DNA of 25,753 bases from positions 1 to 25,753 of the IMG/VR virus record IMGVR_UViG_3300009433_000048, one strand, 5' to 3'. The stretch is from a virus. The notes under the pieces were generated by a model that was not told the DNA's origin, ran no database searches, and saw only the letters and a program-made list of their open reading frames with translations. A program made the translations under genes and the position numbers. Below, one piece after another: positions 4,094 through 25,753 of the stretch (position 1 is its first letter; every line of letters starts with the position of its first letter).

Positions 4094-6147
4094 AGCATTT
4101 AGTAGAATTTGTTAACAATCCTTGGGATCCAGACGTATGTTATAATCTAGCAAAAGAATACTTTGAATTAGGTCAGTGGGCCGGAGCACAGTCTTTTTTT
4201 AGTAGATGTGCAGAAAGAACTTATGATGATGAAAAAGCTTATGAGTCTCTTTTGTACATGGGAAAGTGTTTTTATCATAATACAGAAAGAAATGAATCTG
4301 CTAGACAATGTGTTTTGCACGCAATCGCTTTAAAGCCAGAAAGGCCTGAAGGTTATTATTTTCAAGGTCTCTACATGGCAAGTTGTATAGAGGACTATTG
4401 GCAAGATGTGTATACAAATTCATGCACAGGTATAGAGATGATGAAATCAAATCCGCCAAGACTATTTAAAGAAGAAGTAGAACAAGGCTTATGGTTTAAT
4501 AAAGCTTGGTCTGCTTATTATGTAAACAGAATTAGAGAATCACATGATCTGTTTACTTATATTAATTTAAAATTTGATGTAATACCAGAGCTAAAACAGT
4601 ATGTTGATAATAATATTTTTAATAACAGACTAGACTATAATTTTACACAGCTAGGAAATGAAAGAAAAGTTGCAAAAGAAATAGATAATGAGGTTCTAAT
4701 AGAGAGAAGATATGAAAGAGAGCTCTGTGTAAATGAAGGCGAAATAGTTGTAGATATAGGCGCAAATGTTGGAGCTTTTTCTTACTCGATACTTAAAAGA
4801 AAACCTAAAAAGATTTATTGTTTAGAACCCTCAAAAAAATTACATGAAGTATTAAAACTTAATTTAGATAAAAGCAATGTAACGATAATAGGAAAAGGTA
4901 TATCTAATAATCTTACTTCCAAAAAAGATGCTTATGGAAACGGAAGTGATAGTGAATTTATTACATTTAGACAATTTATAGAAGATAACAAAATAAAAAA
5001 AATAGATTTTTTAAAAGTTGACTGTGAAGGTGGTGAATACGATATCTTTACAAAAGAAAATGTTGATTGGATAACAAAAAACGTCTCTAAAATTGTCTGT
5101 GAGTTTCATCTGTGGGGTGTAGAAGGTTGGTATGAAAACTTTAAGATATTTAGAGATTTATATTTACCCAGTGCAAAATTTTATAAAGCTGTTTATGTAA
5201 GAGATAATGATGACACATCACAAAAAATATTAGATGATAACTGGCTACAGACTTTTTCTGACTGGGCAATGCATGGTGGACAATTAATAATTAGTATAGA
5301 CTTTAAAGAAAAGCAAGAAGAAAAAGAAAAATTAGATATTGTTATACAGGGTAAGTACAATGACTATGTTGATGAGCTAATTAATCACTATCAACAATTA
5401 TATTTTGTAAACAATATTATAGTTTCTTGTTGGAATGGTGACAAAGAACCTTCATCTAGAGAGGGCGTAAAATTTAAATTTAGTTCATTGCCAGAAGATC
5501 CTGGAACAGGAAATAGAAACTTACAGATTAAATCTTCTTATGAGGGCTTAAAATGTGCAAAGACAAAGTATGCTATAAAAGTTAGATCAGATCAAAAGTA
5601 TTCATACAATTGTATGCTCCAAATGTATAATTTTTTTATTGATAATAAAGAAAGAGATCTCTCATATTGGCCAAACAATAAAATGCCAAGAAACAGTATA
5701 ATAACTGGCGGCATTTTTTCACCGTTTCCATTTCACCCTAGAGACCACATATTTTTTGGTAACACTGAGGACTTAATTGAACTTTTTGATATACCACACG
5801 AGACACCAAACTTTACAAAGAAGCATGGGATAGCAAAACAATTCGAGTCAAACCATTATGATAAACATATTAGGACTGAATCTTATATTGGAACGCACTA
5901 TTGCGCTAAGTTTAATACAAAGTTAAAAGACTTTTTAAAAGATCCTGAGTTATATTTACATGATGGCGCAAAAAATATAGACCAAGTTTTAGAGATCAGC
6001 AATGAGATTACACATAAAATTTTCAAACCAGTACCGTCTAGAATTTTAGAAATTGAGTGGCCAAAGTATAATTGGCAAGAATATCAAATAAGCTCACAAA
6101 GAGATCAATTTGGCGAAAGATGGGAAGAGGATTTTAAAGAGGGATAA
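4090..6147 (+). CDS. Three-domain fusion: TPR repeats, FkbM-type methyltransferase, WavE-like glycosyltransferase
   Basis: 685 residues starting at a GTG (4090) that overlaps the stop of the previous gene. Residues 1-180 are helical tetratricopeptide-like repeats (for example YFELGQWAGAQSFFSRCAER, 24-43). Residues about 200-405 are an FkbM-family S-adenosylmethionine methyltransferase: VDIGANVGAFS (221-231) is motif I and KVDCEGGEYD (309-318) is the FkbM hallmark. Residues about 415-660 match the WavE lipopolysaccharide-synthesis family: LDIVIQGKYNDY, IIVSCWNGD, GNRNLQIKSSYEGLK and KVRSDQKY. Together they suggest transfer of a sugar and O-methylation of a glycan, with the TPR part as scaffold or acceptor binder. 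Whether the target is the host surface or the virion is not shown. Confidence 0.8.
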   Translation: MKHLVEFVNNPWDPDVCYNLAKEYFELGQWAGAQSFFSRCAERTYDDEKAYESLLYMGKCFYHNTERNESARQCVLHAIALKPERPEGYYFQGLYMASCIEDYWQDVYTNSCTGIEMMKSNPPRLFKEEVEQGLWFNKAWSAYYVNRIRESHDLFTYINLKFDVIPELKQYVDNNIFNNRLDYNFTQLGNERKVAKEIDNEVLIERRYERELCVNEGEIVVDIGANVGAFSYSILKRKPKKIYCLEPSKKLHEVLKLNLDKSNVTIIGKGISNNLTSKKDAYGNGSDSEFITFRQFIEDNKIKKIDFLKVDCEGGEYDIFTKENVDWITKNVSKIVCEFHLWGVEGWYENFKIFRDLYLPSAKFYKAVYVRDNDDTSQKILDDNWLQTFSDWAMHGGQLIISIDFKEKQEEKEKLDIVIQGKYNDYVDELINHYQQLYFVNNIIVSCWNGDKEPSSREGVKFKFSSLPEDPGTGNRNLQIKSSYEGLKCAKTKYAIKVRSDQKYSYNCMLQMYNFFIDNKERDLSYWPNNKMPRNSIITGGIFSPFPFHPRDHIFFGNTEDLIELFDIPHETPNFTKKHGIAKQFESNHYDKHIRTESYIGTHYCAKFNTKLKDFLKDPELYLHDGAKNIDQVLEISNEITHKIFKPVPSRILEIEWPKYNWQEYQISSQRDQFGERWEEDFKEG

Positions 6148-6148
6148 A

Positions 6149-7210
6149 ATGAAAAATTTAATTGTTACAGCTGCAGGACTATCAACAAGATTTGAAGGGT
6201 TAAAACCTAAATGGATGCTAACACACCCCAAAGGTAACTGGATGATAGTAGAAGCTTTAAGAGAAATAGACTTTAATAATATAGATAATGTGTATTTTGT
6301 TTTCCTAGCAGAACATATAGAAATGTATGATTGTCATGAAGCAATAAAAATGTGCATAGAAGAAATAGGAATATCAGACAAGGCAAAAATAATTACATTA
6401 TCGAAACAGACAATGAACCAGCCGCATACTGTTTATGAGGCAATAAAACAAAATAATATAAAAGGGCAGATAATAATAAAAGAAGTTGATAATAAATTTT
6501 CTTTTAAAGTACAAGAAGGAAACTTTATGTGTTACTATGACCTCAATGACACAACATCAATCAACCCTTCAAATAAAAGCTATATAAAAATAAAAGATAA
6601 TACAATTACAGATATTGTAGAGAAAAAAGTAATTTCTTCAACTTTTGGCTGTGGTAGCTATTCTTTTGAAAGTGCTGAAGTATATTGTGAGCTGTTTGAA
6701 GATTTATCACACTCAGATAATAATTTATATTTATCACATATTATAAAAGAAATGATAAGAAGAGGTTATAAATTCTCACCAGTGCAAGCAAAAAATTATA
6801 TTGATTGGGGAACAAAAGAAGACTGGTTTGATTATGTTAGACAATATAAGACACTATTCGTTGATTTAGATGGGACTCTAGTAAAGAGTTCAGGAAAATA
6901 CACACCGCCCTACTGGGGTGATACAGAAGGCATAAAAGAAAACATATCGTTTTTAAACAGACTGCACGACACAGGAAAGGTCTATATTATTATAACAACT
7001 GCAAGACATAAGTCAGCAGAAGAAAAAACATTAAAACAATTAAAAAGAGAAGGCATAAAGTATGACGATATTATATTCAATTTATTTCATGCAAACAGAA
7101 CTATTATTAACGATTATGGCAGCTCTAACCCTTACCCTACTTGTGATGCTGTTAACATCGTTAGAAACACCAATGAATTAGAAAGGTTTTTAAAAGACTT
7201 AGGAAAATGA
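6149..7210 (+). CDS. Sugar nucleotidyltransferase fused to HAD-type phosphatase
   Basis: 353 residues from ATG 6149, chosen for the AGAGGG ribosome site at 6138-6143; the frame is open from 6110 but that start lies inside the previous gene. Residues 1-230 are an NTP-transferase domain: LIVTAAGLSTRFEGLKPKWM (4-23) is the nucleotide-binding signature ending in a PK pair, and NYIDWGTKEDW (216-226) is its typical closing metal-binding segment. Residues 231-353 are a HAD phosphatase: FVDLDGTLV with D239 and D241 as nucleophile and acid/base, and IIITTARH as motif II. The pair would dephosphorylate a sugar or polyol phosphate and activate another to an NDP-linked donor, which could feed the glycosyltransferase upstream. 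The substrate cannot be read from the sequence. Confidence 0.8.
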   Translation: MKNLIVTAAGLSTRFEGLKPKWMLTHPKGNWMIVEALREIDFNNIDNVYFVFLAEHIEMYDCHEAIKMCIEEIGISDKAKIITLSKQTMNQPHTVYEAIKQNNIKGQIIIKEVDNKFSFKVQEGNFMCYYDLNDTTSINPSNKSYIKIKDNTITDIVEKKVISSTFGCGSYSFESAEVYCELFEDLSHSDNNLYLSHIIKEMIRRGYKFSPVQAKNYIDWGTKEDWFDYVRQYKTLFVDLDGTLVKSSGKYTPPYWGDTEGIKENISFLNRLHDTGKVYIIITTARHKSAEEKTLKQLKREGIKYDDIIFNLFHANRTIINDYGSSNPYPTCDAVNIVRNTNELERFLKDLGK

Positions 7211-7662
7211 TATTAATATCACATAGAGGAAATTTATCAGGTGTGAATCCTGAAAAAGAAAATAATCCAGAATATTGTCAAGAAGCAATAGACGAAAATT
7301 ATAATGTAGAAATAGATGTTAGATGGCTACCAAAAAGAATGGGAAATGATACTTGGTGGACAGGACATGACAGTCCAAAGTATAGAGTTACAGAAGACTT
7401 TTTAAAAAATAGTAAAGTCTGGTGTCATGCAAAAGATATAATAACACTAAGCAAGCTATTAGATTTAGGTGCACATTGTTTTTGGCATGATAGAGATAAG
7501 GCAACATTGACGTCTAAAGGTTATATTTGGACAGCACCACTAGAAGAGCTAACACAAAGCTCTATATGTGTATTACCAGAGCGACAGAGAGACATAAATA
7601 TAAGCAAAGCTGCTGGAATATGCAGTGATTTTATAGCTGAAATACCATATAGCAGCAAATAA
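7207..7662 (+). CDS. Glycerophosphodiester phosphodiesterase-like (GDPD) TIM-barrel protein
   Basis: 151 residues, starting in an ATGA overlap with the previous stop. The N-terminus ILISHRGNLSG carries the His-Arg (H6-R7) of GDPD-family barrels; VEIDVRWLP (34-42) supplies the acidic metal ligands, and TWWTGHDSPKYRV contains the second His (GHD). It is shorter than classic glycerophosphodiesterases (about 240 residues or more), as in small GDPD-like proteins that sit beside sugar nucleotidyltransferases in surface-glycan loci. A role in releasing or moving a phospho-sugar or phospho-glycerol group is inferred from the context. It is the last gene of the coupled cassette. Confidence 0.7.
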   Translation: MILISHRGNLSGVNPEKENNPEYCQEAIDENYNVEIDVRWLPKRMGNDTWWTGHDSPKYRVTEDFLKNSKVWCHAKDIITLSKLLDLGAHCFWHDRDKATLTSKGYIWTAPLEELTQSSICVLPERQRDINISKAAGICSDFIAEIPYSSK

Positions 7663-7686
7663 TTTTACTTTTCAGTTTTTTAAATC

Positions 7687-7696
7687 ATATATATTA
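7687..7696 (+). promoter_or_regulatory. AT-rich promoter-like motif before the tail genes
   Basis: The sequence ATATATATTA lies 40 bases upstream of the ATG at 7727, in the 64-base gap that ends the glycan cassette. It resembles ATATTTATT found 49 bases before the sheath gene and 43 bases before the tube gene. A shared late-promoter role is possible but not shown. The gap has no clear terminator hairpin, only a T-run near 7675. Confidence 0.25.
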
Positions 7697-7726
7697 AAGA
7701 ATAAAACGTTATAAAGGAGTCTAAGC

Positions 7727-8059
7727 ATGGCTGACGAAATTAAATTTACAGAAGATGAAATGAAAGATCTTCAAGTAATCCGTGAAAAATACAACAACAT
7801 ACAATTACAATTAGGTGGCTTAAAAATGCAGCAAATTGCAGCAGAAAAGAATGCAACCAGGTTGTTGGAAACAGAAGAATCTCTAATGTCGGCATTAGAA
7901 GATCTTTCTACAGAAGAACAAGACACAGCAAAAGTTCTTAATGATAAGTACGGACCAGGATCATTAGATCCACAAACTGGTGTATTTACACCTAGCACAG
8001 TACCTTCAGCGCCACTTGATAGCAAAGAAGGCTATATAGAACCTGCCGAAAAGGGTTAA
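7727..8059 (+). CDS. Small conserved-type coiled-coil protein upstream of the sheath gene
   Basis: 110 residues with a good AGGAG ribosome site (7715-7719). Residues 1-70 are a heptad-rich, strongly acidic helix (FTEDEMKDLQVIREKYNNIQ and on); residues 73-90 (LNDKYGPGSLDPQTGVFTPS) resemble the short C-terminal motif of a small protein I recall from marine T4-like phages. No catalytic motif or membrane segment is visible. Its position suggests a structural or assembly role in head or tail, but this is unproven. Confidence 0.65.
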   Translation: MADEIKFTEDEMKDLQVIREKYNNIQLQLGGLKMQQIAAEKNATRLLETEESLMSALEDLSTEEQDTAKVLNDKYGPGSLDPQTGVFTPSTVPSAPLDSKEGYIEPAEKG

Positions 8060-8068
8060 TAACTTAAG

Positions 8069-8091
8069 TGCATTTTGAAATATTAAATGCA
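8069..8091 (+). other. Small hairpin in the intergenic region before the sheath gene
   Basis: TGCATTT (8069-8075) and AAATGCA (8085-8091) form a seven-pair stem with a nine-base loop, followed by TATTTATTTT. It could be a weak terminator for the small gene before it or a processing site. The stem is AT-rich, so confidence is low. Confidence 0.3.
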
Positions 8092-8099
8092 TATTTATT
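8091..8099 (+). promoter_or_regulatory. ATATTTATT motif upstream of the sheath gene
   Basis: This nine-base motif recurs exactly at 10607-10615 before the tube gene, at a similar distance from the start codon. Read on the other strand it is AATAAATAT, which contains ATAAATA, the core of T4-type late promoters; the direction would then be antisense. Either reading is tentative. Confidence 0.25.
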
Positions 8100-8139
8100 T
8101 TAAATTGTACTCTTAAAAAACACTTAACGGAGAAATTAA

Positions 8140-10524
8140 ATGGCAGAGAGAATTGTCTCACCGGGCGTATTTACTCGTGAAAAAGATCTCTCTTTCTTAC
8201 CTCAAGGTATTGCCGAAATAGGTGCTGCATTAATAGGTCCTACTAAAAAAGGACCTGCTTTTGTACCAACTGTAATTCGCAATTTCCAAGAGTTTGAAGA
8301 GATGTTCGGATCTTTAGATGATCGTTTTTACGTACCAATAACTGCTAGAGAATATCTACGAAGTGCGGGAACTGTAACAATTGTACGTGTTTTAGGTATC
8401 GGAGGATACTCATCAAACACCGTACAGATTTCTGCAGATAGAAGCGGCACAGAAGAAAAACAACTATACTTAGTACTAGCACCAAATGCTCTGACTGTAG
8501 GAGAATTAACACCTCTCGCATCTACACATGTATCTGGTACATTTAGTGCTTTTGATGTAAGTTCTGGAAGCTATCAGTTTTCCGCATCATTCGATGCCTC
8601 TAGTAACAAATACTATAAGGATGTCTTCAGTGACAATCCAATATCAACTAAAGCACAGGGTAATGACTGTCCCTTTTACATCTATAAGCAGTTTCCAGTA
8701 GGAGCTACAGCAAACGCTTCAGGTGGATCTGCTGTGACAGGCTCTGTTGTACCACTAAATCTTTTACAAGACTACAAGAAGGCATTAACACCTTCTATTC
8801 TTAGTCAAAAACAAGATGGTAATGCTGAGAACTTGTTTCAAGTTGCTTTAAGACATGATGGCGAAACTGAAACAAACAAGCACTTTAAAGTAGCTATATC
8901 AAATGTAAAACAGGCTTCAGAAGTACCAGGTTCAGACTACGGAACTTTTAGTTTACAAGTTAGAAAAATTGATCAGCAAACATTTGCAGCAGCAGATGAT
9001 GAAATTGTAGAACAGTTTGACAACTTAAACTTAGATCCTAAGTCAACAAACTTCTTGTGTAGAAGAGTTGGAACAAGGTGGATTTCTGTTGACTCAGATG
9101 GAAAAGTTAATTACAACGGTGATGCTGAATGGCCAAATCTCTCTAGATATGTCTTCATCACAGGTAGTGCAACATTAAATGAAGGTGGATTTTCAAAAAG
9201 CTTAGTACCTTACGGCCACGCTGCAATGAAGCTTCCACAGTCATGTTCAGTTGACGATCCAACTGATCAACTAGCACAGCTTGTTAATAATACTTTTACA
9301 ACTTCACAGGTAAGCTCAACAACAAGTCAATATGACACTAGTATCTTCTACGGGTTTGATTTCTCAACAGAAGATAATAGAAGTTTTCTAATGCCGTTGG
9401 CAACCGATGCAGCTGTTTATCACAACCCATCATTTAGTTTAGATGATATGGTAGGTGATGCTAAGGCAACATCAGCGTTGTTTGGAGGTGCTACTACTTT
9501 CGCATCTGCTTCAACAGCTGTTAGCTTAACACATTCAAATGTAGCACAAAGAAAATTCTTTGTACCTCTACAAGGTGGATTTGACGGTGTCAATCCTGCA
9601 ATAAAGAAGAATACAGGTAAGAATATTACAGCTGCTAACCAACAAGGACTTGATTGTTCATCATCAACATCAAGTGGATCAGTTGCTTATGAAAGAGCAA
9701 TAAAAGCAATTAGTAATGCTGATGAGTTTGATATAAACTTATTATCTACTCCTGGCTTGATCTACAATTTGCATCCAAGCCCAATAAATCTTGCACAACA
9801 AACTGTACAAGATAGAGGTGATACATTTTATGTATTTGACTCAGTAGCTTGGGGTGATGGTATAAACACTGCTGTCAACGCTATAACTAGTGTTGATACA
9901 AACTATGCAGCTACTTATTATCCGTGGGTAAAACTACTTGATGATACAGTAAACTTACCGATATGGGTACCACCTTCAGTGGTAATTCCTGGTGTGATAG
10001 CTCAAAATGATAGAGTTGCACATGAATGGTTTGCACCTGCTGGTTTGAATCGTGGTGGATTAAGAGGTGTATTAGAGGCTAAAACTAGACTAACACACGC
10101 TGAAAGAGACTTGCTGTATGAAAATAGGATCAACCCTATTGCATCATTCCCAGGTCAAGGCGTTGTAGTTTTTGGTCAAAAAACACTTCAATCAAAGCCA
10201 TCTGCGCTTGATAGAATCAATGTTCGTAGGTTGTTAATTAGGCTTAAGAAGTTTATTGCTAGTTCTTCACGCTACTTATTGTTTGAAAACAATACAGTTG
10301 CAACAAGAGCAAGATTCTTAAACATAGTTAACCCTTATCTTGATTCAGTACAATCAAATCAAGGACTAACTGGTTTTAGAGTTGTAATGGATGACAGTAA
10401 CAACACACCAGATGTGATCGATAGAAATCAGCTGGTAGGACAGATATTTATACAGCCTGCAAGGTCTGTAGAATTTATCGTTCTTGACTTCGTTGTTCAG
10501 CCATCAGGAGCAACTTTCCAATAA
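8140..10524 (+). CDS. gp18: Tail sheath protein (T4 gp18-like)
   Basis: 794 residues, against 659 in T4 gp18. The N-terminal part is the conserved sheath start (IVSPGVFTREKDLSFLPQG, then AALIGPTKKGPAFVPTVI and an FxEFxxxFG block). The C-terminal quarter is the conserved inner domain that wraps the tube: WFAPAGLNRGGL, LLYENRINPIASFPGQGVVV, FGQKTL, RINVRRLLIRLKKFI and the final FIVLDFVVQPSG. The middle, rich in Ser/Thr/Asn, holds the variable outer domains and accounts for the extra length. The protein polymerises around the tail tube and contracts on infection. A GGAG site precedes the start, and a strong terminator follows, separating sheath from tube transcription. Confidence 0.95.
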   Translation: MAERIVSPGVFTREKDLSFLPQGIAEIGAALIGPTKKGPAFVPTVIRNFQEFEEMFGSLDDRFYVPITAREYLRSAGTVTIVRVLGIGGYSSNTVQISADRSGTEEKQLYLVLAPNALTVGELTPLASTHVSGTFSAFDVSSGSYQFSASFDASSNKYYKDVFSDNPISTKAQGNDCPFYIYKQFPVGATANASGGSAVTGSVVPLNLLQDYKKALTPSILSQKQDGNAENLFQVALRHDGETETNKHFKVAISNVKQASEVPGSDYGTFSLQVRKIDQQTFAAADDEIVEQFDNLNLDPKSTNFLCRRVGTRWISVDSDGKVNYNGDAEWPNLSRYVFITGSATLNEGGFSKSLVPYGHAAMKLPQSCSVDDPTDQLAQLVNNTFTTSQVSSTTSQYDTSIFYGFDFSTEDNRSFLMPLATDAAVYHNPSFSLDDMVGDAKATSALFGGATTFASASTAVSLTHSNVAQRKFFVPLQGGFDGVNPAIKKNTGKNITAANQQGLDCSSSTSSGSVAYERAIKAISNADEFDINLLSTPGLIYNLHPSPINLAQQTVQDRGDTFYVFDSVAWGDGINTAVNAITSVDTNYAATYYPWVKLLDDTVNLPIWVPPSVVIPGVIAQNDRVAHEWFAPAGLNRGGLRGVLEAKTRLTHAERDLLYENRINPIASFPGQGVVVFGQKTLQSKPSALDRINVRRLLIRLKKFIASSSRYLLFENNTVATRARFLNIVNPYLDSVQSNQGLTGFRVVMDDSNNTPDVIDRNQLVGQIFIQPARSVEFIVLDFVVQPSGATFQ

Positions 10525-21598: not shown

Positions 21599-21620
21599 AA
21601 GCCCCTTTTGACAGGGGCTT
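21599..21620. terminator. Bidirectional rho-independent terminator between convergent genes
   Basis: AAGCCCC (21599-21605) and GGGGCTT (21614-21620) form a seven-pair GC-rich stem with an eight-base loop. On the minus strand the stem is followed by a run of T (complement of 21596-21600), a good terminator for the TonB-domain gene. On the plus strand the following bases are AATTAGC, a weaker tail, with TTTT only later. Confidence 0.85.
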
Positions 21621-21633
21621 AATTAGCTCAATT

Positions 21634-21975
21634 TTAATCTTTGATCTTAATTGGAAGTTTGTAACGAACTCTTACAGGTCGACCGTTTTGTCGTGCTGGA
21701 TGGTATGCTGTCTTATTTACTTTATTTAAGACAATATCATCATAAGCATTATTAAACGTATCTAAGATAACAGCGTCATTTACATGACCATTTTCGTCAA
21801 CTATAAATTCAACATGAATTGTTCCAGTCCTAAGGTTAGTGCTTATAGGTGGCAGTTCGTTTGAACTTAAGTTAAACTCTTTTTTTGGTATGGGTGGGTG
21901 ACTCCCTTCATTTTCTAATGAAAAGTTTTGGGCTGTCACCAAGCCCATCAGCATTAAGAATGCCAGGTTCCTCAT
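21634..21975 (-). CDS. Exported protein with a TonB C-terminal domain
   Basis: 113 residues, the only minus-strand gene. An AGGAGA ribosome site (21982-21987) lies six bases before the ATG. Residues 1-15 are a Sec-type signal peptide (MRN, then LAFLMLMGLV, probable cleavage after VTA15). Residues 47-112 are a TonB C-terminal domain: GTIHVEFIVDENGHVNDAVI (51-70), a helix with DDIVLNKV, then AYHPARQNGRPVRVRY and LPIKI. In bacteria this domain contacts TonB-dependent outer-membrane receptors. Here the proline-rich linker and the membrane anchor with its ExbB/ExbD-contacting His are absent, so the product would be a free periplasmic domain that cannot transmit energy. It could block receptors or act as an envelope adaptor. 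Confidence 0.85.
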   Translation of the reverse strand: MRNLAFLMLMGLVTAQNFSLENEGSHPPIPKKEFNLSSNELPPISTNLRTGTIHVEFIVDENGHVNDAVILDTFNNAYDDIVLNKVNKTAYHPARQNGRPVRVRYKLPIKIKD

Positions 21976-22103: not shown

Positions 22104-23408
22104 ATGGTTATAGAAACAAGTTCAAGTTATAAAGCTTTATTACAAAAGATTGCTGGAAAGTCTCTGCCAGCTGTTTTCATAAGAGATGATAATAGAAATC
22201 ATCCTGCAGAATCAAAGATAATTGCTGTATCTCTATTCGTAAACGGTGAAATAATCGATGTAATATATGATCACAGCGAATCTTTCTCTAAAGAGATGGA
22301 CGTTGAAGAACTTTCTTGTGTAAAAAGATTTTGGGTTGATAATGTAAAAGAGTTCTATCATTTGACAAAGATGAAAAACGGTTATGACGTTATAATGTCA
22401 GACTACTTAGATAATATAAGGCATGAACAGATATTGGAACCACAAGTTTTTAATAAAATATATGAGAATAGTTTTGCACTTAGAAAATCAAATAAAATTG
22501 TACCGATAGTAAAAGTCTTAGAATACGCACATGAAAGGCTAAACATAATAATTGATAGTATTCCAGAAAAGATAGACAAGACATTTATAAAATATAATAA
22601 AGCACTATATGAATTTGCGAAATTTGAAAACTGTGGAATGAAAATAACACCAAACTCATTCGGAACAGTATTTAGAAATGGTTACGGATACCCTAATTAC
22701 AATATGTTTACCGCAACAGGAAGACCTTCAAACACTTTTAGAGGTGTAAACTTTGGCGCACTAAATAAAAATGATGATACAAGAAATAATATTGTTAGCA
22801 GGTTCGATAAGGGCATGCTAGTAGAATTTGATTATGATGCATATCATCTTAGGCTATTAGCAGAAATGCTAGATTTTGATGTTCCTTTTGATAAATCACT
22901 ACACCAACACCTTGCAGATACCGTGTATAAAACGACTTACGAAGAATCTAAAAAAGTCTCATGGCAAATATTATATGGAAATATATCTGTAACTAAAGAA
23001 GAAAACCCTTTCTTTTACACAATTGAAAAAATGTCAGATGCACTATGGAAAATTTTCAACAGCAATAAATCGTTCAAATCTCATATTTATAAACGACAAT
23101 TTGTCTCTGATCAGATTTCTGATCCGAACAAAAATAAAGTCTTGAATTATTTTATTCAGTCTTATGAAACAGAGAGCAATATTGAGACAATTAAAAAAAT
23201 TAACAAACATCTCAAAGGTCGTAGTACACGCATGATGTTATATACGTACGATAGCTTCCTGTTCGATTTAGATAGGACAGAGGGCTTTAAAACAGTACTC
23301 CAGATAAAGAAAATTTTGGAGAACGGTAAGTACCCGGTCAAAGTAAAAGCTGGACTAAATTATGGTTCAATGCAAGACATAACGGAGAGGATTAATGAGT
23401 ATAAGTAA
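22104..23408 (+). CDS. Divergent compact family A DNA polymerase-like protein
   Basis: 434 residues. From residue 200 it follows the Pol I palm/fingers order: TGRPSNTF (205-212) and VNFGALN in place of TGRLSS and LQNIP; motif A VEFDYDAYHLRLLAEM with D243 as first catalytic Asp; O-helix KKVSWQILYG (283-292) keeping the Lys, aromatic (W287) and Tyr of Pol I K758, F762 and Y766; NYFIQSYE (348-355) matching the N845/Q849 region; motif C YTYDSFLF with D383 as second Asp. Changes are His for the Pol I steric-gate Glu (H248), loss of the R754 equivalent, and YDS for HDE. Residues 1-170 are unassigned and show no complete 3'-5' exonuclease motifs. It may be a gap-filling, terminal or inactive polymerase. 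It overlaps the next gene by 14 bases. Confidence 0.75.
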   Translation: MVIETSSSYKALLQKIAGKSLPAVFIRDDNRNHPAESKIIAVSLFVNGEIIDVIYDHSESFSKEMDVEELSCVKRFWVDNVKEFYHLTKMKNGYDVIMSDYLDNIRHEQILEPQVFNKIYENSFALRKSNKIVPIVKVLEYAHERLNIIIDSIPEKIDKTFIKYNKALYEFAKFENCGMKITPNSFGTVFRNGYGYPNYNMFTATGRPSNTFRGVNFGALNKNDDTRNNIVSRFDKGMLVEFDYDAYHLRLLAEMLDFDVPFDKSLHQHLADTVYKTTYEESKKVSWQILYGNISVTKEENPFFYTIEKMSDALWKIFNSNKSFKSHIYKRQFVSDQISDPNKNKVLNYFIQSYETESNIETIKKINKHLKGRSTRMMLYTYDSFLFDLDRTEGFKTVLQIKKILENGKYPVKVKAGLNYGSMQDITERINEYK

Positions 23409-25599
23409 AGTTATAAATGATGTAGTAGAAAAAGTATCTTATAAGACATCCAACGGAATGGTCGATGTAAAAGATCCATATCACTTATTTTTATTAAAAG
23501 AAGAATTTGAAAAATTATTAGATCCTGATCTTGTGCATGCAGCCTTATATGAAGCAGATACAGATAAAGAACCACCATTAGATGACGCTGAACAAGAAAA
23601 AAGAAAGAAAATGGGATTGGTGTGGAAAGGAAAAGGTTATGGTAAAGAAAATGAAGATGGTATAACACATAAAAATGATGGTGGAAAATTAGTTGCAATT
23701 GAAAAAGAAAAAGAAAAACAAAAAAATGATCCTCAAAAGCTGACAGCAAAAGATTTTACAACAAAGACTGGTGAGCAAGATCCAGAACAAAAAGGACCTC
23801 AACCTGGAGAAGAACATCACGGTGCAAAAATGCCAACACCAGAACAGACAAAGAAAGACACAGATAATAAGACACAAAAAGCTAAAGAAAAAGTAGATAA
23901 AATGCCTGATGGACCTGAAAAAGAAAATGCAAAAAAGGTACTTGATATGCTTTCACGTTTTGCAAATGCAAAAACAAAAGAAGAGAAAATAGCAGTACTT
24001 CAAGAGATGCAAGCCAGTGGTCTTATACAAAGAAATGACAGAGGAAGTGGAACAAAAAAGATTTATTTTTCAGGCGATACTGGTTTACATTATAAAGAGT
24101 TTGGACAGGATACTGCACTTCATAGAGAAATTGCTATACTAGATGAAGAACAATTTGAAGAGACAGGACAGGGATTACTGAATACAAAAGATCAAGCAAA
24201 TTATGGTAAGAAAAAAATGGCACCAATGAATTTATTTGATGGGCAAGAAAAAGAAGTTTCTGTAAAACAAAATGATGACGGCTCTGTTCAAATTGGTGAT
24301 GACCCAGGAACAACACTTAAGACATTACCAGATCCAAATGAAGATGATAATGCTGATAAAAAATTAAGAGAAAGAATAGATGAAGCGTATACAAAAGATG
24401 GTGCATTAAATAAAGAAGAATATGAAAAAGCAAAGATGGCAATAAAACGTCATAATTTACTTGTTAAAGAAATTGAAAAAGTAATTGCTGCAGGAGGCGG
24501 AAGTTTAAAATGTACAGACCCCATTCCAGGAGTTCAACCAGATACACAAGAGAATAGAGATAAGATAAAAAGCAAAACTGGTGAAAATGTAGCAAACAGA
24601 TTAGAGGAACTTTCAGGAGGAAACTTAACTGGAGCACAGAAAAAAATTATTGATAGACTTAATAAATTAAAGTCACCACCATTATCACAGGAAGAATATG
24701 AGACTGAATTAATGTCTCTAGCAACAGCGATACAAAATGATATTGATTTCTCAACAGGTTATGCAGATCTTGCTGAAACATTATCATATATGAGACATTT
24801 GAATAGAGGTAGTGTTGCATATTTACCTTCAGCTGGTAATTTTCCTCTTGGTGATGTACTCACATTCCCAGATACAGAAAATCAACCAGATTTTGAAAAT
24901 GATTCTCCTGAAGATATAGCATCAAAAATGAAGGCGATTTTTATATCAGTTGATAATAGAAGTATTAAGAAAGGCGAAGGAGGAGCTAGCTCAACACATA
25001 CAAAAGTTGAATTAACAGAATTTGTCGATATGGATAAAATTCCAGCAAAAGAAGTTGCAAAAGATCAAGCATGGTTATCTGACAAAGGATACGATCAAAT
25101 ATTTGGTGTTAGAGGTGAGAAAGAACCGACTAAAGAAGAAGTTAATACAGCACATGATGAAGTAAAAAAACAGGCAGAGAAATATGGTGTTGATGTAACA
25201 AGTAATGAACATATAGAACAAAGAAGAAAAAGGGTTGATAGCTCTATTGATAAAGTAAAAAGAGATAGAAAGAAAGCTAATAAGCCAGATCTTACTTCAG
25301 AAGAAGAATCATTAATGAGAAAGAAACATGAAGCATATTATGATCTTGGAAAAGTGCAGGCTGATGTTTACAATAGACAACTTGATCAAGGTGCAGTACA
25401 GTTGTATACAAATGAAGTATGGAAAGAAGACAAAGATGGAAATGCAACAACCAGTGAAACAGATGGCATGGACTGTAAAGCATATATAAAATTTGAATTT
25501 GCTGCAGGATGGTTAAAAAGTGGAAAACCAAACAATAAAGTTCCTTCTAGATTTAAAAATAAAAAGAGAGATGATCAAGGAAACTTAGTCGACTGCTAA
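23395..25599 (+). CDS. Large charged hypothetical protein, probably virion-associated
   Basis: 734 residues, starting inside the polymerase-like gene with AGAGGA upstream. It is highly charged with long Lys/Glu/Asp stretches. Residues 1-55 are helical (VINDVVEKVSYKTSNG and on), 70-200 look disordered with a GLVWKGKGYGKENEDG motif, 210-290 may be globular (KKIYFSGDTGLHYKEFGQDT), and the rest alternates helices with compact parts such as FSTGYADLAETLSYMRHLNR and a Cys-containing end (DGMDCKAYIKFEF). No catalytic family was recognised. I recall similar architecture in marine phage structural or injected proteins, but this is weak. Coupled translation with the polymerase-like gene suggests joint function or packaging. 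Confidence 0.6.
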   Translation: MSISKVINDVVEKVSYKTSNGMVDVKDPYHLFLLKEEFEKLLDPDLVHAALYEADTDKEPPLDDAEQEKRKKMGLVWKGKGYGKENEDGITHKNDGGKLVAIEKEKEKQKNDPQKLTAKDFTTKTGEQDPEQKGPQPGEEHHGAKMPTPEQTKKDTDNKTQKAKEKVDKMPDGPEKENAKKVLDMLSRFANAKTKEEKIAVLQEMQASGLIQRNDRGSGTKKIYFSGDTGLHYKEFGQDTALHREIAILDEEQFEETGQGLLNTKDQANYGKKKMAPMNLFDGQEKEVSVKQNDDGSVQIGDDPGTTLKTLPDPNEDDNADKKLRERIDEAYTKDGALNKEEYEKAKMAIKRHNLLVKEIEKVIAAGGGSLKCTDPIPGVQPDTQENRDKIKSKTGENVANRLEELSGGNLTGAQKKIIDRLNKLKSPPLSQEEYETELMSLATAIQNDIDFSTGYADLAETLSYMRHLNRGSVAYLPSAGNFPLGDVLTFPDTENQPDFENDSPEDIASKMKAIFISVDNRSIKKGEGGASSTHTKVELTEFVDMDKIPAKEVAKDQAWLSDKGYDQIFGVRGEKEPTKEEVNTAHDEVKKQAEKYGVDVTSNEHIEQRRKRVDSSIDKVKRDRKKANKPDLTSEEESLMRKKHEAYYDLGKVQADVYNRQLDQGAVQLYTNEVWKEDKDGNATTSETDGMDCKAYIKFEFAAGWLKSGKPNNKVPSRFKNKKRDDQGNLVDC

Positions 25600-25753
25600 T
25601 GATAAAATTAAAGGATATATTGATGGAAGAAAAAGTTATGGATACGGCTGGAATAATATTAAGAGATCCAGTTGCAGGTATTGTTTTATGCAAAGACACA
25701 GAAAAGTGGGGTATTCCAAAGGGTAAAGTGGAGCTCGGTGAAAGTCCTATTGA
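25599..25753 (+). CDS. Nudix hydrolase, N-terminal part (3' partial)
   Basis: The gene starts at an ATG in a TAATG overlap with the previous stop and runs off the right edge after 51 residues. It shows the beginning of the Nudix fold: AGIILRDPVAGIVLCKDTEK then WGIPKGKVELGES, where G42-x5-E48 is the first part of the Nudix box (GX5EX7REUXEEXGU); the rest lies outside the window. Nudix enzymes hydrolyse nucleoside diphosphates linked to another group, and T4 carries NudE. The N-terminal MIKLKDIL is a short lead-in before the domain. The substrate is unknown. Confidence 0.85.
   Translation, partial: MIKLKDILMEEKVMDTAGIILRDPVAGIVLCKDTEKWGIPKGKVELGESPI

Follow-up and report, generated by a model that had tools for sequence, protein, structure and literature searches.

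A divergent phage family A DNA polymerase, divPolA1, has been described in 14 phages, including Flavobacterium phage vB_FspM_immuto (Yutin et al. 2024, PMC11348598). According to that text, divPolA1 has a truncated thumb, an inactivated exonuclease and retained catalytic palm residues, accompanies a regular PolA, PolB or PolC, and is followed downstream by a conserved replication neighbourhood; the authors conclude from the 14 phages that it takes part in replication. The same source describes divPolA2 (AUR84708 of MG592441.1), which is likewise a second, highly divergent phage PolA beside a regular DNA polymerase but has a different N-terminal domain and a variable neighbourhood. Its motif A, read by eye as DFKAFE, keeps the Glu at the steric gate. 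PolA of T. thermophilus phage Tt72 is also a phage family A enzyme and has its motif C Glu replaced by Ser, but it is full-length, proofreads strongly and retains the gate Glu (PMC9324360). A literature search returned no later paper using the name divPolA1.

We analysed a 25,753-nucleotide stretch of viral DNA (IMG/VR record IMGVR_UViG_3300009433_000048, positions 1 to 25,753), referred to throughout as the window. A preliminary description, made from the sequence alone, had pointed to a polymerase-like gene near its end. The features under discussion are as follows.

22104–23408, plus strand: divPolA1 gene, ATG start, 434 aa, identified from the ORF, an AlphaFold2 model, a fold match to Klenow/Bst Pol I and PF00476 matches in divergent relatives
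22104–22478, plus strand: N-terminal domain, approximately residues 1–125, a putative vestigial 3'–5' exonuclease, from alignments and from the model, whose first residue falls on Bst residue 302
22830–22847, plus strand: motif A, D243-Y-D-A-Y-H248, with the catalytic Asp and, where the steric gate lies (E. coli Glu710), a His
22938–22979, plus strand: motif B (O helix), Y279, K283, W287 and Y291-G292, from the alignment of distinct relatives
23247–23255, plus strand: motif C, Y382-D383-S384, with D383 in 131/131 (a count somewhat inflated by the fetch patterns) and position 384 Ser or Ala
23395–25599, plus strand: charged partner ORF (P0002), 734 aa, sharing its first 14 nt with the end of the polymerase gene

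The window adds a new member to divPolA1 and does not define a new family, since divPolA1 had already been published by Yutin et al. 2024 (PMC11348598). Queried alone against Pfam and PHROGs, it gave no real match, and recognising it as a polymerase requires profiles or structure. AlphaFold2, supplied with an alignment including 42 relatives, produced a model with a pLDDT of 92.0 and a pTM of 0.90. Foldseek returned Klenow fragments as the top PDB matches of this model (best E 9.3e-17), and VIA-align placed model residues 1–424 on residues 302–876 of Bacillus (Bst) Pol I with a Z score of 27.9 and an rmsd of 3.9 over 397 residues. D243 lies at a strand end and D383 in a hairpin turn, the same placement as in Pol I. 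The predicted structure thereby identifies the product of 22104–23408 as a family A polymerase, and this membership holds despite the loss of the gate Glu because the fold and the catalytic residues are those of the family.

Homology searches place the protein beside the described examples. Using tblastn, the window protein matched immuto gp001, annotated as 'DNA polymerase family A', with 29% identity over 90% coverage (E 7e-41); its other matches were an ORF of a huge phage and a hypothetical protein of a Microcystis phage. Immuto gp001 and the window protein were also recovered by one alignment model. The Pfam DNA_pol_A profile (PF00476) scored gp001 and a second relative, L053, above the cut-off once in-frame pieces were summed, and matched further divPolA1 relatives with E values of 1e-8 to 4e-4. 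In IMG/VR, a single-sequence query retrieved 228 relatives and an alignment query at least 578 matching stretches. Like the window protein, immuto divPolA1 has an apparently short thumb, an apparently dead exonuclease and a preserved palm.

The motif order previously reported, namely TGR (T205-G-R207), the motif A Asp, the O helix, N348-x3-Q352 and the motif C Asp, is correct and the ORF is as described; the family A likeness read from it is borne out by the model and its Pol I matches. The Klenow fragment of E. coli and Bacillus Pol I shares with the window protein its fold, the order of motifs A, B and C, the catalytic Asp residues, the O-helix Lys, the Tyr-Gly pair and the Gln849 equivalent (Q352). 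The two differ in length (434 versus approximately 600 residues, at ~14% identity), in the apparently shortened thumb and apparently inactive exonuclease of the phage protein, and at several active-site positions, where the gate Glu is replaced by His, Arg754 by Tyr (Y279) and His881/Glu883 by Tyr/Ser; W287 occupies the Phe762 position.

Conservation was counted over 131 distinct sequences, with each position scored where covered. The catalytic residues are kept in every relative covering them (Asp243 in 130/130, Asp383 in 131/131), counts that are somewhat inflated, as the patterns used to fetch sequences overlapped motifs A and C. K283 (130/130), Y291-G292 (131/131) and Q352 (approximately 130 distinct relatives) are likewise invariant, and Y279 is present in 129/130. 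At position 287, unlike most divPolA1, which have Phe (115), the window protein belongs to the 15 with Trp, while position 384 is Ser or Ala. The change of HDE to YDS that had been singled out is present but unremarkable on its own, since Tt72 PolA, in which D384 and D615 are critical for the active site, also has Ser at the motif C Glu position (PMC9324360). As that enzyme shows, a natural polymerase can do without the motif C Glu. Pairwise dN/dS values between divPolA1 and near relatives are approximately 0.04–0.18, and the polymerase core is under strong selection. With the catalytic Asp residues invariant and dN/dS low, enzymatic activity is likely; the preliminary description had called it plausible, and the free variation of the two Asp residues that it named as a counter-sign was not seen.

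The N-terminal region was originally thought not to resemble the usual exonuclease. It does not look canonical, although the model, whose residue 1 aligns with residue 302 of Pol I, marks it as a degenerate, shortened 3'–5' exonuclease instead of an unrelated domain. D29, H33, H57 and K82 are invariant or nearly so, with D29 mostly kept, and the position of the motif II Asp is occupied by Phe, Leu, Thr or Ala (F84 in the window). Aligning the exonuclease motifs by eye, we saw no invariant triad in the divPolA1 alignment. Both this by-eye alignment and Yutin et al. 2024 (PMC11348598) suggest that the exonuclease is inactivated. The 434-aa length and the helix pattern of the AlphaFold2 model are compatible with a short thumb.

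The replacement of the gate Glu by His, proposed at the outset, was confirmed by a profile-to-PDB (HMM) alignment with solved Pol I-type enzymes, which sets H248 opposite the Glu of DYSQxE. His248 is present in 130/130 distinct relatives; the single-sequence scan pattern, EFDYDAYH, held the gate His, the alignment-scan pattern did not, and the remaining patterns of the first scan lay outside motifs A and C. Twelve further divPolA1, fetched from long contigs with an immuto-type full-length PolA by a profile without a motif pattern, also have His (12/12). The control set, canonical full-length PolAs from the immuto lineage, carries the gate Glu in 65/65 aligned sequences and has the equivalents of Arg754, Lys758, Leu762 and Tyr766 intact. 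Because these canonical PolAs and divPolA2 keep Glu, the His gate is a trait of the divPolA1 lineage. His248 most likely stands in for Glu710 as the sugar-checking residue, paired with Tyr291. His has a bulky side chain and may still work as a gate. In Pol I, E710 is described as pairing with Y766 and as universally conserved in family A (PMC4882331). His at the gate together with Tyr for Arg754 could mean a different substrate. The text of Yutin et al. 2024 (PMC11348598) does not contain the words 'steric gate' and 'histidine', nor does it discuss the gate His, the Tyr for Arg754, the Trp or Phe at 762 or the overlapping partner.

The gene had been framed against gp43, the implied question being one of replacement. 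Comparison of related records instead indicates that divPolA1 is a second polymerase and not a gp43 replacement, as it occurs in relatives in addition to PolB, Pol III alpha or full-length PolA; among the longer records studied, a majority encode such a canonical replicase as well. PolB is present in 19/30 divPolA1 records and in 8/13 further records, all IMG/VR records being fragments, absence from which means little. Immuto encodes a full-length PolA (gp199, 777 aa), and among long contigs with an immuto-type PolA, 12/14 have divPolA1, the two lacking it being 97 and 121 kb. Within the clade to which the window belongs, four records (G004, G010, G011 and G015) have Pol III alpha, which sets this clade apart from immuto; the divPolA1 of G010 is 89% identical to that of the window. 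On the divPolA1 tree, in which some long branches leave the deep joins unsure, two changes suffice to explain the replicase label, and the records with Pol III alpha group as a single clade (support 100/99). The window, a 25.7-kb fragment ending at 25753, after the partner gene, contains no replicase; judging from its clade, the phage's own is probably Pol III alpha. We considered divPolA1 as the sole replicase of the phage and rejected it on the strength of gp199 in immuto and of PolB or Pol III alpha in the relatives.

Two further records illustrate the range of replicases. A window-related T4-like phage (L128) encodes at 5846–9478 a 1210-aa Pol III alpha with PHP, NTPase, finger and HHH domains, nested in a clade whose relatives have PolB, which implies a replicase swap. 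The 484-kb uncultured phage LR756508.1 (L088) combines divPolA1 with matches to DNA_pol_B (in pieces) and DNA_pol3_alpha.

The gene had first been assigned to a late region, and the genes upstream of divPolA1 are of the T4 tail type (sheath PF04984, baseplate PF12322). Because a hairpin-plus-T site (21615–21629) and a minus-strand gene intervene in the window, however, the gene would open the replication module and sit outside the tail operon, at the border between the two. The T4 late promoter TATAAATA occurs four times in the window, which equals the chance expectation, with none immediately upstream of the divPolA1 gene; the promoter scan as a whole gave results at chance level. The minus-strand gene (21634–21975) encodes a 113-aa protein with a signal-peptide-like start and a TonB_C match (PF03544, E 1.4e-8); G010 has a counterpart at the same place and G029 has one too. 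Such a phage-encoded TonB C-terminal domain could function in superinfection exclusion.

Downstream, the immuto and window lineages are alike in having a replication cluster, as they are in having a regular DNA polymerase elsewhere in the lineage. Gene by gene in G010, divPolA1 is followed by the partner, NUDIX, a hypothetical protein, an epimerase, a methyltransferase, another hypothetical protein, a gp32-type SSB and RecA/UvsX, and thereafter by a 5'–3' exonuclease, a DnaB-type helicase, class II RNR, deoxyribosyltransferase, a YfbR-like protein, ThyX, Pol III alpha and PhoH. Immuto and Mel-JY01 have a recombinase, a 5'–3' exonuclease and a helicase shortly downstream. The 5'–3' exonuclease (PF02739) is present in 21/22 records, typically ~3–13 kb from divPolA1. 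A DnaG-type primase was found in 3/3 named phage records, and on this basis we rejected divPolA1 as a substitute for a missing primase.

The coupling to a large charged protein noted earlier is real, in that the 734-aa ORF begins within the last 14 nt of the polymerase gene. More broadly, the N-terminal module of the partner follows divPolA1 at no more than 2.5 kb in 102/119 distinct loci, and where the next ORF has 390 aa or more, it overlaps the divPolA1 gene in 62/90 cases. Immuto, unlike the window, has no large coupled partner at that place, and the N-terminal module also occurs in gp078, a protein encoded in another part of the immuto genome (L086, about 4490). Among close relatives (L001, L003, L004 and L006), the N-terminus is conserved and the C-terminus exchanged. 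For instance, the polymerase of L006 is 99% identical to that of the window over the covered part, yet the L006 partner is ~80% identical over the N-terminal 133 residues and 24% in the C-terminal match; conversely, L004 has 72% polymerase identity but 90% over the whole partner. The exchanged C-terminus suggests modular recombination. P0002 had no match in Pfam, PHROGs or PDB sequences, and its AlphaFold2 model (pLDDT 81.5) gave no fold match above the common level, the best being helical with a Z score of 5.9 over 82 residues. A PD-(D/E)XK-like pattern (E...D...SVK) is visible by eye in the C-terminal part of some partners, and we make no claim from it. The co-translated partner probably binds or targets divPolA1.

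We favour, with moderate confidence, the reading that divPolA1 is an accessory family A polymerase of T4-like (immuto-related) phages, forming a split, phage-encoded Pol I together with a separate 5'–3' exonuclease. The polymerase would fill in short stretches, without proofreading, at gaps, flaps and recombination intermediates, and the stand-alone exonuclease would provide primer and flap removal, in the setting of Okazaki-fragment maturation and recombination-dependent replication. A split Pol I of this kind would serve whichever replicase the phage has and be largely independent of its type. Since phage 5'–3' exonucleases are common, their co-occurrence with divPolA1 is weak evidence for this arrangement. 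Hosts also supply their own Pol I, which counts against a phage needing one. A rather unlikely alternative is specialised recombination or repair synthesis, in which divPolA1 extends invading 3' ends prepared by RecA/UvsX and gp32, or copies across lesions, without acting in Okazaki maturation. The RecA-like and gp32-like genes do share the downstream cluster, and the apparently short thumb and missing proofreading resemble those of distributive, lesion-tolerant enzymes, but a lagging-strand helicase and the 5'–3' exonuclease sit in the same cluster and no lesion-specific insert was seen in divPolA1.

The altered gate raises another alternative, which we regard as improbable, that His248 lets divPolA1 accept or prefer ribonucleotides and thus extend or make RNA primers, or tolerate rNTPs when dNTPs are low. 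The uniform His of divPolA1 against the uniform Glu of the immuto-lineage PolAs speaks for it, as do the reported universality of Glu710 in family A (PMC4882331) and the finding that a mutated gate can by itself let rNTPs in (PMC4215692); against it, the bulky His may still exclude the 2'-OH, and the DnaG-type primase of the named phages leaves no primase missing. A wider version is doubtful: here divPolA1 would be a natural family A lineage with a rebuilt sugar-selection site (the His248/Tyr291 pair, Tyr279 and Phe/Trp287) and would take ribonucleotides or some other non-standard substrate, acting in complex with its fast-diversifying, co-translated partner. That the protein is a catalytically dead or structural relic is highly improbable. 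Although the exonuclease is degenerate and Arg754 is lost from motif B, D243, K283, Y291, G292, Q352 and D383 do not vary even among very divergent sequences, dN/dS is low, and Tt72 PolA is active with Ser at the third carboxylate position (PMC9324360).

Together, with at least 578 IMG/VR stretches set against the 14 genomes of the published account, these comparisons show that many T4-like aquatic (marine) phages carry a second polymerase whatever their replicase. The pairing of divPolA1 with a replicase resembles the bacterial division of labour between Pol III and Pol I. With an invariant His in divPolA1 and Glu-gated PolAs of the same phage lineage serving as a built-in control, sugar selection can be tested directly, and divPolA1 could yield a useful small polymerase.
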